A stretch of 34,255 bases of DNA from Azospirillaceae bacterium (GTDB taxonomy: Bacteria > Pseudomonadota > Alphaproteobacteria > Azospirillales > Azospirillaceae): positions 1 through 34,255 of the forward strand of contig JANQJV010000035.1 of NCBI GenBank assembly GCA_028281465.1, written 5' to 3'. How positions within the stretch are numbered: the first letter of the stretch is position 1; the number at the start of each line of letters is the position of its first letter. The notes under the pieces were generated by a model that was not told the origin of the DNA, made no database searches, and worked only from the letters and a program-made list of their open reading frames with translations. This document shows, piece by piece, positions 13,963 to 19,205 of this stretch. The position numbers and the translations under genes are program-made.

Positions 13963-14482
13963 GGGGGTGGACGGGGACGCGTGCCCGGCGCTCCGCCTGA
14001 TCGGTCGCTGGCGCCGGGAAGCTTCGAGTTTGTCGAGTGAACCACAGGCGAGGGTATGTGGGATTGCCTCTTGCGAGCTTTGCGATTGTGTGCGCTCGCC
14101 CACAGCATCCGCGATCTTGATAGGCAGATGTCGCAGATATCTGCATTTGCGCTGCGACGAATTAGAGCTTCATACCGGCCGATCACCAGAACCATTGATC
14201 ATTTCAACACTGTTCTATTGCCACTGCAGGCCCACAGCCCATCGAAGAGGCCCTTGATGCACTCGAAACGAACCAACATCGGATCGTCAAACGCCGCATC
14301 GCAGATCCCACATCCCGGGGCTGTGGTTAAGTCACATCAAGCCTGATATCGACCCGATCCTTCTACAATCCCAGCTCGACCATATACCCACAAAGCTGAT
14401 CAGAAATATCAAGAGCAGGGTTTTATTCCATGCATATCCATTAATAGAATTGAGCTTTTGTGGCTGGCAGCAAATGCGCAGG
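13963..14482. other. Intergenic left border of the AT-richer island
   Basis: 520 bases without a supported gene. Just after metH an 8-bp GC stem (CCCGGCGC at 13984-13991 with GCGCCGGG at 14011-14018) may help end transcription, but no T-run follows. From about 14,100 onward the base composition visibly falls towards AT, marking the junction with accessory DNA. Short frames here (for example 14056-14346 on the plus strand) have no recognisable features. Confidence 0.4.
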
Positions 14483-15301
14483 CTATGTTTCCACCACGCA
14501 AACAAGCATGGCGGGGATGCCAAGGCTGAGCAACTCGAGTGTTGAACTACCCGCAGATGCCTGACATACCACCCCTTTCTTTGATTCATCGTAGAAATCT
14601 GCAAATATGCTGATATCAAGGACGGCTTCACTCTCTTCGTCAGACCTATCACCAATAGCACTGCTTAATGCAATCAAGAAATCTGGCCTATCTACATAAC
14701 TTGAATCAGCAGACGTATCGGGGGCTTCGCAGATCGATCTTTCTCCTGGTACTGGCCCGAGGCTAATGAAACGCAAAACACCGGAATTCCCTGGGACTAC
14801 TGTGGGATGTGCCAGGCCAAGAGGTGGCAGCCGATCTCGTGCGGGGTCAATCCTAGTAGCAGAAGCATCCCGAAAAGAGTATGTCGACAAACAGTACCTC
14901 TTCTTACCGACGCGAACGTCGGCATACTCATCAACGACAATGCCGCTATATCCTACAGCCGCAGTATTTACATAACCTAATGCAACATCAACAACGAGAT
15001 ACTTCACACCATCCGGATACTCCTCGAACGCTAAGGTGACGAACTTTGGAGGTATCATCTGAATTGACGCACCTCTAGAGTAGAAGAATATGTTCAATAG
15101 AATTGTAAAGACTGACAACAAAAAAGCCGTCGCAGCAAGTAAATCTGACCTCCGCTCTATCAACAGAATCCCGAAAAAATCCCAGTCCTGCCTGTTTCTC
15201 TTTCGGGCACTTTCTTGATCGGAAACCTGCGCGTCTTGCATCCCAACCTCCATTGCTGGTACTGATAAGCGATTGATGATACTGGATTCAATGAAGTTCA
15301 C
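14483..15301 (-). CDS. Unrecognised membrane-anchored protein (single N-terminal TM)
   Basis: Up to 272 residues. A charged N-terminus (ESARKRNRQDWDFF, about 31-43) precedes one hydrophobic helix (LLAATAFLLSVFTILLNIFF, about 54-73). The remaining 200 residues are beta-strand-like and probably face the periplasm or exterior (type II topology). In-frame ATGs at residues 17 and 21 are alternative starts. I do not recognise a family. Its AT-richer codons differ from those of the flanking housekeeping genes, which suggests acquisition. It follows the 393-residue gene by 90 bp on the same strand, so they may form a two-gene unit. Confidence 0.6.
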   Translation of the reverse strand: MNFIESSIINRLSVPAMEVGMQDAQVSDQESARKRNRQDWDFFGILLIERRSDLLAATAFLLSVFTILLNIFFYSRGASIQMIPPKFVTLAFEEYPDGVKYLVVDVALGYVNTAAVGYSGIVVDEYADVRVGKKRYCLSTYSFRDASATRIDPARDRLPPLGLAHPTVVPGNSGVLRFISLGPVPGERSICEAPDTSADSSYVDRPDFLIALSSAIGDRSDEESEAVLDISIFADFYDESKKGVVCQASAGSSTLELLSLGIPAMLVCVVET

Positions 15302-15391
15302 GAAACACCACCAACTACATCGAGCTTTTTTACTCTACCAGGACTAGACAGGTCGTGAAAACCAAAGCTACTTCGTCCGTAGCTGGGCGAG

Positions 15392-16573
15392 TTAATTCCC
15401 CGGAATCGATTGGTCAATCGGAAGTTCAACTGGGTCCTGCCTGGGTGTTATTGCCATGATCTCAACCAACTCGTCACATGCATCAATCTTCTCCTTTAAG
15501 GCACCCAATAGCACAGAGAAATCTGCACCCCCTCGATTTCTTACCTCAGATAATGTCTCGAAAAGGATACTACAGACATCTCCATCAATTCGACCTATAG
15601 TCGCATCTGGCTCTAAGGCGAATATGGGGATCTGGAAAAATGAATGAGAAAGTTCAATGCCATATCTTCCGAATCTCAATGATACTGAGCGTGCAAGTAT
15701 CGGCGGTCCACCCATCATCTGGAGCGGCAACGGGATTACAATTGTTCGCTCACGACCCGCGGGAATAATTGTAGCAGAGAGCAACCCGTCACTACTTGGT
15801 GGCCAAAGAAATGTCTGCGACTCGAACAGCCTCATACCAATGCGTGATAGACCAATTGCCACTGTTGTCTGGTTTGGATTCTCGACATGCGCTGACGGGC
15901 GCAGCGCCCTCAGCTCTCTCTCACTAGTAATAATGGCTGCTCTTGAGTTCATTGCAGAAGATGGAATTGCACCAGGACCAACAACTGCACCAAGAACTGC
16001 TAGCGGACCTCTATCTCGATAGAGCAATCTTTCAAATCGATGCCAATATTTTCTGATTCTAATGATTGAAAACACTGAGGGAAACTTCAAAACACTTACC
16101 GTAGGGTAAACAGAAACATGCCAACTCGGAAACCATGGATTTTTTTGATCACTTTCCTGACTGCCAAGATTCCGATAAACAGCTTCGTAAACCTGAGGGT
16201 CGGGCATCGATTCAGATTTAGCAAATTTGTCGATCAACGACTCTAAAGTGAGGGACTTGTGAACAGCAATACGCCCATCCGAATAATGACGGATATCAAA
16301 CACCCGATCTCCAAGACGCACAATCACGGAATCTATCTCACGAGCCCGGTCAACAGGAAGCAGAAGGGCATTCTCATTCAAAGCGTCAATAGATTTGCCA
16401 AGGCCTTGCGCAGCAACCGATCCTAGCAAAGAAGAAAAAAACAAGACTGTTGCACCAATGAAAAACCGACCTAAGCACTTATCCACTGCAGTACGTGCAA
16501 CGCTTATTGAGATCATCGCTGCAAACCCCACCTGGTACACATAGGAGATTCCGGCTGACTCAGTCACAATCAT
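15392..16573 (-). CDS. Unrecognised exported or membrane-anchored protein
   Basis: 393 residues. Hydrophobic segments near 10-26 and 36-55 (FFIGATVLFFSSLLGSVAAQG, which could be a late signal sequence if translation starts at Met20) precede a large soluble region with no repeats or motifs I can name. GGAG lies eight bases before the first ATG and GGTGGGG lies before Met20, so both starts are credible. Low GC matches the neighbouring 272-residue gene. The very AT-rich stretch upstream (16,678-16,710) would suit a promoter. Function unknown; the pair could be cargo of a small genomic island. Confidence 0.6.
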   Translation of the reverse strand: MIVTESAGISYVYQVGFAAMISISVARTAVDKCLGRFFIGATVLFFSSLLGSVAAQGLGKSIDALNENALLLPVDRAREIDSVIVRLGDRVFDIRHYSDGRIAVHKSLTLESLIDKFAKSESMPDPQVYEAVYRNLGSQESDQKNPWFPSWHVSVYPTVSVLKFPSVFSIIRIRKYWHRFERLLYRDRGPLAVLGAVVGPGAIPSSAMNSRAAIITSERELRALRPSAHVENPNQTTVAIGLSRIGMRLFESQTFLWPPSSDGLLSATIIPAGRERTIVIPLPLQMMGGPPILARSVSLRFGRYGIELSHSFFQIPIFALEPDATIGRIDGDVCSILFETLSEVRNRGGADFSVLLGALKEKIDACDELVEIMAITPRQDPVELPIDQSIPGN

Positions 16574-16881
16574 TAACTAATCTCCGCTATCAGAGTATCG
16601 AATCTAGCAGCTTCCTTCATAAAGTTCAATTGTACGCTCGGCGAAAAGCTACCCGCAGTGTGAATACCAGAGTGCTACAAATATATAAAATTAATTTATA
16701 ATTATGAACAGCAGCCGTGTTCGTGTTGCATTGTCTTGCGAGTTCTGATCGCAGTATCGGATGCCAAATTGGTCAAGATTTCTGACAAAACAGATTGCAT
16801 ATATTGCCGCTGGCTACCTCTAAAGCACCAAAGCAATTCCCAGCTTGCGGAAAAACCAACATAGCATTGCGCACCAGTCTC
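16574..16881. other. AT-rich intergenic region, probable promoter zone of the island pair
   Basis: About 300 bases without a gene. A run of almost pure A/T around 16,678-16,710 stands out in an otherwise GC-rich window and is well placed to drive the minus-strand 393-residue gene. No hexamer pair stands out enough to define a promoter. Confidence 0.35.
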
Positions 16882-16885
16882 CTAG

Positions 16886-16900
16886 GACCTGTGGACATTT
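16886..16900 (+). repeat. IS left inverted repeat
   Basis: GACCTGTGGACATTT, preceded directly by the target duplicate CTAG. It matches the right end in 14 of 15 positions. Confidence 0.9.
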
Positions 16901-16981
16901 TCCAGCCCAGATGATCAAGGACGGGGTTCACATGGGACTCGGTTCGTGATTCAAGGCTCCAAATTTAGGGGGAGTTGGATC

Positions 16982-17347
16982 ATGATCCGCTTGATATTGA
17001 CGGACCCGCAGTGGGAGAGGATCAAGGACCTGATGCCGGGTAAACCTGGTGATCGTGGTCGGACTGGCTCAGACAATCGTCTCTTCATTGAGGCCGTTCT
17101 TTGGTTGGTGCGTACCGGGGTACCATGGCGTGATCTTCCCAGCGAGTTTGGGCCTTGGTCCAGGGTCTGGAAGCGATTTAGTCGTTGGGCCAAGAACGGC
17201 GTTTGGGAGAGAGTTTTCAATGAGCTAGCGAAGGACCCCGACTTCGAGTACGTCATGATCGACTCAACCATTGTCCGCGCACACCAGCACGCGACTGGCG
17301 CAAAAGGGGGACTCAAAATCGGGTCATTGGCAGGTCACAGGGTGTAA
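16982..17347 (+). CDS. IS5-family transposase, upstream frame (orfA)
   Basis: 121 residues: the N-terminal helix-turn-helix part (LTDPQWERIKDLMPGKPGD), LFIEAVLWLVRTGVPWRDLP, and the first catalytic aspartate in YVMIDSTIVRAHQHATGAKGG. GGGGGAG lies eight bases before the ATG. After the A4G5 run at 17302-17310 the frame stops making sense, while the -1 frame continues the transposase perfectly. orfA and orfB together would make one roughly 250-residue DDE enzyme by -1 slippage, as in IS427-type IS5 relatives. Confidence 0.85.
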   Translation: MIRLILTDPQWERIKDLMPGKPGDRGRTGSDNRLFIEAVLWLVRTGVPWRDLPSEFGPWSRVWKRFSRWAKNGVWERVFNELAKDPDFEYVMIDSTIVRAHQHATGAKGGLKIGSLAGHRV

Positions 17348-17733
17348 ACAGCACCAAGATAAACGCGATAGTGGACAGTCTCGGAAACCCTATACGTTTT
17401 ACCGTGACACCAGGGCAAGTGCATGATTGCACACAAGCAGCAGAGCTGATTGAAGACACTCCAGCCAAGCATTTGATCGCTGACAAAGGATACGACACCA
17501 ACGATCTGCGCACGAGTCTCCAGGAGGCATCTATAGAAGCAGTCATTCCAGCGAAGTGTAACCGTAAGGAGCCGATTCCATACGATAAGGATCTCCACAA
17601 AGAGCGCAATCTCATGGAGATATTCTTCAACAAAATCAAGTATTTCCGCCGTATTGCCACGCGCTACGGGAAGACGGCTCGCAACTACCTGGCAATTCTA
17701 TATCTTGTTGCTGCTATAATCTGGTTACGCTAA
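17311..17733 (+). CDS. IS5-family transposase, downstream frame (orfB, -1 frame)
   Basis: From the A4G5 run the -1 frame reads TQNRVIGRSQGVNSTKINAI and continues into the standard IS5 core: LGNPIRFTVTPGQVHD, the second catalytic aspartate in LIADKGYDTNDL, and the glutamate segment ERNLMEIFFNKIKYFRRIATRYGKT. There is no own ribosome binding site. It is most likely expressed only by ribosomal frameshifting from orfA. A single-base loss that inactivated the element cannot be excluded from sequence alone. Confidence 0.82.
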   Translation, partial: TQNRVIGRSQGVNSTKINAIVDSLGNPIRFTVTPGQVHDCTQAAELIEDTPAKHLIADKGYDTNDLRTSLQEASIEAVIPAKCNRKEPIPYDKDLHKERNLMEIFFNKIKYFRRIATRYGKTARNYLAILYLVAAIIWLR

Positions 17734-17746
17734 ATGTCCACAGGCC
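17732..17746 (-). repeat. IS right inverted repeat
   Basis: AAATGTCCACAGGCC, followed by the target duplicate CTAG. It overlaps the end of the transposase stop codon. Confidence 0.9.
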
Positions 17747-17887
17747 CTAGAGCGGTTTCACATTGACCGGATTCAGAGAAATCACCTTGGCGGAACAACG
17801 AATGTGGCAGCAGGACAGTTAGGCATGGCCGAATCAGCAAGAACCGCACAGCGTCCGACTACGACCGCACGATTGTAATGCCATTGC

Positions 17888-18516
17888 TCAGTTTCTCCGC
17901 CAATCCATTTCATCGGCCGCCACGGTTTCAGTATCGCCGCTTGGAAATCTCACATAGTAACCGTCGCCGTCCCTGCCGAGTACTTCGACCGGCTTGCCGT
18001 GCCGAGCCCGCGGCCGGCTCAGGTCCTCCGCGCTGGCAACCGCCTGCCAGTCGTCGTCCAGTCCGGGGCCCCGCGCCTGACGCCAAGCGGTTTCCAAACC
18101 GCAATCATCATTGGTCGTAATAATGTCGGTTATCAGCCCATCGCACGCCAAGAGCGCCAGATAGCGATGGGCGCGGGTTGGCGCGATCTCGGCCAAACGG
18201 GCAAATCTCCAGCGTCTGCCTCGTCAGCGTTAAAGCAGTCAATCGCATCGGCTGACCTCAGAGCGGCTTTGAACTTACAGATGAGATCTGTGGTCGCCGG
18301 GACGCTACCGACCGAAACGCCGGCTCCGACCAACGGCACCACCCGTCGCTGGAGGACGGCCGCCATGAACTTGTCAAACCGTTCGTCTGTGGTGCTGGTT
18401 ACAACATACTGTGCATCTATGGCACCCCACCCCATAATTTCTACCCTCATCGAAAAAATGTATTTTCTGAAACTTATGAAGCCACCTGTAGCATGTGGAT
18501 CGGTTCGCCGACGCAT
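17888..18516 (-). pseudogene. Frameshifted SIR2-like gene
   Basis: One frame (from 18516, or an internal ATG near residue 23) carries a SIR2-type NAD-binding start: RFDKFMAAVLQRRVVPLVGAGVS. It loses sense near residue 100. The next frame picks up near 18,196 with APTRAHRYLALLACDGLITD followed by IITTNDDCGLETAW, which is the SIR2 TTNYD segment (here D for Y). It then ends in an 80-residue tail (KPVEVLGRDGDGYYVRFPSG) I do not recognise. SIR2-like domains act as NADases in several anti-phage systems. This copy is broken by a frameshift near 18,196-18,215, is short, and lies 140 bp from the IS, so it is probably a relic of a defence gene. Confidence 0.6.
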
Positions 18517-19205
18517 GCACGGATTAGGCCATTGCTCGGATACGATGACGTTTCACATCATGCCACATTGGCGTCAGCTCCGGTAGATCCTCCGAACAGT
18601 ATCCTAGAGGTTTTTCCTGAGCGCCAGAGACAATTTCCGTTGGGTTCCTGGCGTGTCTATGGTCGGGAATAGCCGTATATGACCTCTGTGAAAGCATGAA
18701 TGGTTTTCCTTTTAGAAATCTATCAATTTGCATCCATTCCTGATAGAGATGGAAAACACTTCTGAAAAGTCGATTCTGCCATGTTCCGATGAAGCCCGGA
18801 TAGAGTTGCCGGGCCTGCGACCCGGCCTCGGCGCTCACCGGGATTGACCCGCCTCTGCTTTTGGTGTCCGCCCCGCTGTCTTGATCGTTGTGTCTGTGTG
18901 GCAGTTATGTCGAGCGGGCCGCCTGTGCGCGCGGGGTTTTCCATCGCGAACCGGCTGATCAACATCGTCATTTGAGACGTCGCCCCTTATGGTTGCGCGT
19001 CCGTCGATTGCCAAAATCGCACAAAACCCGGCACCGATCGCCGGCACGGCCTATCCGGGCCGCGCCACCGGTCACTTTGCCGTGGGGCATCCCCCACGGC
19101 TCGTCGGCCCGATGGCAAGGGCTGTCGCCCTCGACCACGGCCACCCCGAAAAAGTCGCGGCCTGCCCTCGGTTTTGCTCCCTATCCGGTCATCGACAACA
19201 GCCTG
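18517..19205. other. Right flank of the island, no supported gene
   Basis: About 690 bases. The first half is AT-richer. A 104-codon minus-strand frame (18524-18838) has no recognisable features, so I do not call it. The second half returns to high GC and holds two adjacent hairpins. It probably consists of decayed mobile or defence DNA between the SIR2 remnant and the Na/Pi-cotransporter-like gene. Confidence 0.4.
19080..19131. repeat. Pair of adjacent perfect hairpins (REP-like)
   Basis: CCGTGGGG/CCCCACGG with a 4-nt loop (19080-19099) is followed 18 bp later by AGGGC/GCCCT with a 4-nt loop (19118-19131). Neither is followed by a T-run on either strand. They could belong to an interspersed repeat family or a transcription end for the minus-strand gene at 19206. 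Confidence 0.35.

Follow-up and report, generated by a model that had tools for sequence, protein, structure and literature searches.

A low-GC gene pair in an Azospirillaceae genome: a member of a sporadic, unnamed family of predicted membrane proteins beside a gene for a probably exported protein

Organisation and composition of the locus

The window, the whole stretch of 34,255 nucleotides of Azospirillaceae DNA analysed here, contains a patch of lowered and mixed GC content at about 14,000-19,000. Two minus-strand open reading frames, gene A and gene B, lie within this patch together with an insertion sequence and a broken remnant:

14483-15301, minus strand: gene A, 272 aa by longest ORF, GTG start
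15077-15142, minus strand: transmembrane segment of gene A, about residues 54-75 by hydropathy, followed by RGASIQMIPPKFV
15366-15384, minus strand: terminator-like hairpin in the gap between genes B and A
15392-16573, minus strand: gene B, 393 aa, ATG start (374 aa if the alternative ATG at 16516 is used)
16406-16474, minus strand: signal-peptide-like segment of gene B, residues 34-56, ending FFIGATVLFFSSLLGSVAAQ, from hydropathy and a c-region read by eye
16886-17746, plus strand: IS5-family insertion sequence with 15-bp terminal inverted repeats (14/15 matching)
17888-18516, minus strand: presumed SIR2-like remnant, PLVGAGVS... and then IITTNDDCGLETA in another frame; broken, recognised by motif only

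The GC contents of gene A (0.475) and gene B (0.464) are far below that of metH, their left neighbour (0.658), and their third-position GC values are 0.46 and 0.40, respectively, against 0.87 in metH. A preliminary description of this DNA had called the genes AT-rich and co-directional, 272 and 393 aa long and 90 bp apart, all of which holds when the longest frames are taken. Genes A and B are most likely real low-GC genes gained by a high-GC alphaproteobacterium. Between metH and gene A (13963-14482) GC also falls and no recognisable gene is present; this interval could hold remnants of another element.

The IS5-family element, which separates gene B from the SIR2-like remnant, is flanked on both sides by CTAG (16882-16885 and 17747-17750), and its transposase is spread over two frames. 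Elsewhere in the genome it finds part-length matches only, of 90-98 bp at 72-82% identity. The hairpin between genes B and A could separate two transcripts; it comes from a scan that gave four terminator-like sites where shuffles averaged 2.3, a weak excess, and promoter-like sites about as often as chance predicts (4 against 3.8).

Gene A and its predicted topology

A Shine-Dalgarno sequence, GGAGG at 15247-15251, was read 5 nt upstream of an ATG at 15241. The start of gene A most likely lies at this ATG, which would make the gene 14483-15241 (252 aa) and widen the gap to gene B to 150 bp in place of the 90 bp measured between the longest frames. Hydropathy predicts gene A to be a single-pass membrane protein with an anchor-like helix at residues 54-73, and the stretch that follows, RGASIQMIPPKFV, is partly common to the relatives described below, as judged by alignment.

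AlphaFold, run on gene A with two pieces from its Brevundimonas relatives, gave a pLDDT of 42.7, with the helix as the only confident part. The gene A model consists of this helix and nine strands, the latter at low confidence, and so gives a faint indication of the large beta-rich exterior part ascribed earlier to both proteins. Foldseek found no PDB structure at or below an E value of 0.001 (best 0.78).

Gene B and its predicted export

At 393 aa gene B exceeds every ORF obtained from 300 base shuffles of the region, the longest of which reached 244 aa, and its GC content by codon position (0.55/0.44/0.40) follows a pattern resembling that of gene A. Its N-terminus contains one hydrophobic stretch, ending ...SVAAQG, and hydropathy and inspection by eye make export of gene B more probable than anchoring. 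Both proteins had been described as carrying an N-terminal anchor. The helix of gene A agrees with this, whereas the stretch in gene B looks like a cleavable signal peptide; an envelope location holds up for both. The AlphaFold model of gene B alone has a pLDDT of 33.7.

Searches with gene B found its own genome and no other. A single-protein search of 59 genomes matched 1/59, the source genome itself, and none of 14 candidate stretches from an exact-peptide scan of genome contigs was confirmed. Against plasmids the sole match was a Sinorhizobium sequence at E 0.4, dropped as chance; phages and viral contigs gave no match. Gene B has no similarity to the profile of the gene A family or to the partner genes found beside two of its members, in Azotobacter and in the alphaproteobacterium G687. 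Distant relatives of gene B may exist outside the genomes, plasmids, phages and viral contigs searched. Since gene B has no relative in these searches, the exact pair has no second case, and within their reach it appears private to the source genome.

Relatives of gene A

Profile and alignment evidence places gene A in a small, unnamed and very divergent family with six relatives: one on an Azotobacter plasmid, one in the alphaproteobacterium G687 and four in Brevundimonas. The Azotobacter protein, WP_198868166.1 of A. chroococcum HR1, was found by tblastn of plasmids with gene A (E 8e-6); no mention of it by accession was found in the literature searched. A single-protein search with gene A found Brevundimonas sp. 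Root608 (E 3.7e-8), matching 2/289 genomes of the class and 2/398 of the phylum, the source genome counted. A three-row profile added G687 (E 1.6e-13; 4/385 genomes matched, counting the source genome and one match judged chance), and a four-row profile added G661 (E 1.2e-7; 5/398 matched, counting the source genome and two judged chance). Finally, a five-row profile run over the family of Root608 added G979 (E 4.2e-44) and G1033 (E 2.5e-53), with 4/199 genomes matched, all of one genus.

Other scans returned little. Within the order of the window the family was found in 1/82 genomes, the source genome itself, and in 0/81 others; within the family of G687, in 1/9, G687 itself. The four-row profile matched 2/61 genomes in the genus of Root608, namely Root608 and the doubtful G812, and a seven-row profile matched 1/113 in a class sample, again the source genome; the sampled genome sets overlap. 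Plasmids scanned with the other family members and with the Azotobacter partner gave the Azotobacter record itself or nothing, and family scans of phages and viral contigs gave nothing. The family is sporadic.

It is also no artefact of iteration. Profiles built from the other six members recovered the left-out member in 7/7 cases, with E values of 6.2e-8 for gene A, 1.2e-11 for the Azotobacter protein, 4.5e-14 for G687 and, for each of the four Brevundimonas proteins, at most 7.3e-38. Among 200 shuffles per member the best E value was 0.29 or worse, and for gene A none of the 200 was listed. When 310 long open frames from the window and the loci were searched, the best seven in each run were the members' own frames.

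Six positions are invariant in all seven proteins: P68, N95, F191, K225, C229 and C251 (numbering of the aligned gene A fragment), the two cysteines lying near the C-terminus. WP_198868166.1 and the Root608 protein share with gene A the N-terminal helix, the motif RG-x2-[IV]-x3-[PK]P, the N and F residues, K-x3-C and the final cysteine, and each has, like gene A, an exported-looking gene beside it. Both are 25% identical to gene A in the seven-way alignment, in which the six relatives range from 15 to 25%.

Several further matches were set aside, all but the last as chance. A match in G000:C227 (E 0.008) lies opposite a longer ORF, one in Pseudomonas syringae (E 0.03) is on the strand opposite annotated genes, and one in G721 (E 3.1e-4) covers 66 positions inside a thiolase-like ORF. 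Those in G527 (E 0.0045) and G551 (E 0.007) are short stretches presumed to be chance. The match in G812 (E 0.001) was left out of the counts: one of its bases is ambiguous, and no complete gene can be read from it. As a separate observation, 896-1804 of that locus (L020) is possibly an incomplete fifth Brevundimonas copy, situated next to the grxD- and thioesterase-like pair that borders the other four.

Adjacent partner genes

By hydropathy or lipobox, a co-directional, exported-looking gene is adjacent at 7/7 loci of the family. It lies upstream in the window, in Azotobacter and in G687, with gaps of 150, 5 and -14 bp, respectively; the Azotobacter and G687 partners show no sequence similarity to gene B. 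In Brevundimonas the partner is a downstream lipoprotein: at 4/4 loci an ORF overlaps the end of the gene A relative by 25-106 bp (longest ORF; gaps of -40, -106, -61 and -25 bp) and encodes a small protein of 51-175 aa with a lipobox-like site and CPGDxRC:

L006, 623-1060: lipoprotein with CPGDxRC
L016, 1854-2009: lipoprotein with CPGDxRC
L031, 3719-4246: lipoprotein with CPGDxRC
L032, 5597-5941: lipoprotein with CPGDxRC

Each of the four Brevundimonas copies has a grxD- and thioesterase-like pair on one side and an rpsD-like gene on the other (names read off translations); at some loci one or two extra small ORFs precede rpsD. Because these four loci belong to a single lineage, the seven loci amount to four independent lineages. 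The 7/7 count suggests a recurrent association; as a raw count from hydropathy and motifs, it is suggestive and not proof. The check for conserved pairing in other genomes, proposed at the outset, shows members of the gene A family beside exported-looking partners, but no second case of the exact A-B pair.

Library and structure searches

Neither protein had a credible match in Pfam, PADLOC, PHROGs or NCBIfam. Pfam and PHROGs were searched with all seven family members, NCBIfam with gene A and four relatives, and PADLOC with gene A, gene B and the Azotobacter and G687 partners. No PDB chain was found with the family profile. The matches that did appear were rejected as chance: PDB matches for gene A (best 0.095) and gene B (best 0.77), the holin family phrog_4325 for gene B (E 0.2), DUF763 for the family member at L010 (E 0.19), TRAP_beta for the Azotobacter partner (E 0.16), and four PHROG matches of one member each (best 0.03). 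The statement that neither protein belongs to a nameable family therefore stands across the four libraries and the PDB.

Links to defence and exclusion systems

The remnant at 17888-18516, 1.3 kb from gene B, is taken to be SIR2-like by motif only; Pfam, PADLOC, PHROGs, NCBIfam, the PDB and plasmids gave no match of it to SIR2. On the Azotobacter plasmid, some 2.6 kb separate the gene A relative from a gene matching SIR2_2, NACHT and HEAT, which is adjoined by a PD-T7-1 homologue (E 1.5e-86). An IS3-type element lies between the relative and these defence genes. Linkage to SIR2 or other defence genes, a further check suggested for the pair, is thus present at the Azotobacter copy, while the window has a motif-level remnant only. 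SIR2 features are confined to the neighbours, namely the Azotobacter gene and the window remnant, and the SIR2_2, ThsA and Dsr1 models do not match gene A or gene B. With defence genes near one relative and four copies among housekeeping-like genes, the defence link of the family is weak, and the defence, toxin-delivery or surface role suggested earlier remains conjectural.

In the existing annotation of the Azotobacter plasmid (L003, 11268-16138), the SIR2-NACHT-HEAT gene is labelled as a HEAT repeat protein alone and the PD-T7-1 homologue as hypothetical.

TraS and TraT are envelope proteins encoded on mobile DNA, one located in the inner membrane and the other exported. Genes A and B would likewise be an inner-membrane and an exported protein on mobile DNA, a resemblance only; neither has a library family match. 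TraS and TraT count as entry and surface exclusion proteins (PMC11733297, PMC11493245). No conjugation genes were noticed by eye among the ORFs of the window, and, unlike the setting of TraS and TraT, the Brevundimonas copies occupy one site among housekeeping-like genes.

Interpretation of the pair

We propose, at about even confidence, that genes B and A entered this genome together by horizontal transfer and form an envelope pair carried as mobile cargo, with A as the anchor and B as its exported partner. Gene A would sit in the inner membrane with one N-terminal helix, N-in, and expose to the periplasm a small, disulfide-stabilised, probably beta-rich domain; the two invariant cysteines near the C-terminus fit such a disulfide. 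Gene B would be exported by the Sec route and work in the periplasm in contact with gene A, which may be its anchor or receptor. Each lineage of the family would have its own exported partner, upstream in the window, Azotobacter and G687 and a downstream lipoprotein in Brevundimonas. The function may be envelope maintenance or an envelope barrier. The proposal draws on the homology of gene A to six proteins and their invariant residues, on the exported-looking partner at 7/7 loci, on the foreign composition and on the failure to find the family in the 81 other genomes of the order. Against the pair, the 150-bp gap with its terminator-like hairpin is looser than the arrangement at any of the six relatives' loci, gene B is unrelated in sequence to the partners in Azotobacter and G687, and the side of gene A on which the partner lies varies by lineage.

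The same observations feed the main rival, to which we give slightly more than a quarter of our confidence: genes A and B may be unrelated cargo lying side by side, with A working alone and B a lineage orphan. The gap and hairpin, the failure to find a relative of gene B and the unlike Azotobacter and G687 partners would all be expected of such a coincidence; counting against it, at 6/6 of the other loci the partner either follows a gap of 5 bp or has an ORF that overlaps the gene A relative. Behind it comes an envelope-level defence or exclusion module in which A and B alter the surface or periplasm and block entry of phages or plasmids. We regard this as unlikely. Foreign composition and sporadic occurrence, the SIR2-NACHT-HEAT gene and PD-T7-1 homologue in Azotobacter and the remnant near gene B are consistent with it, whereas PADLOC matched none of the four proteins scanned, the Brevundimonas copies sit between the grxD-/thioesterase-like pair and rpsD, the remnant is known by motif only, and insertion sequences stand between the pair and both the remnant and the defence genes of Azotobacter.

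Still less probable is a toxin-immunity pair, with gene B an exported toxin and gene A a membrane-anchored immunity protein binding it in the periplasm. An exported gene followed by a membrane gene at 3/3 non-Brevundimonas loci, and the divergent ectodomains of the family, suit this arrangement. Gene B, however, has no credible toxin domain in Pfam, PHROGs, NCBIfam or the PDB, the one holin hit being read as chance, and the Brevundimonas partners are small lipoproteins that follow the gene A relative; gene B may nonetheless be a new type of toxin. We consider it highly improbable that the frame of gene B is open by chance and gene A the sole gene: no collection searched holds a relative of gene B, yet its length exceeds that of any shuffled ORF, its codon-position GC is like that of gene A and its start resembles a signal peptide.

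Beyond the envelope pair that we favour, a broader and speculative extension, which we doubt, is that the family forms a two-part envelope module, a conserved single-pass anchor with interchangeable exported partners, acting as a mobile barrier to phages or conjugative DNA and, in Brevundimonas, established at a single site of the chromosome where its partner is a lipoprotein.

Meaning of the finding

For now the find is a modest one: a protein family that has no name and whose members' roles are at most inferred. If the proposal is true, the family would represent a reusable envelope design, one kind of anchor taking swappable exported partners, that is unnamed in the libraries searched, and the small Brevundimonas locus with its overlapping lipoprotein gene would offer an easy genetic entry to it. 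If the link to mobile defence regions is true, the family would draw attention to systems that block entry and can escape searches starting from cytoplasmic defence genes.
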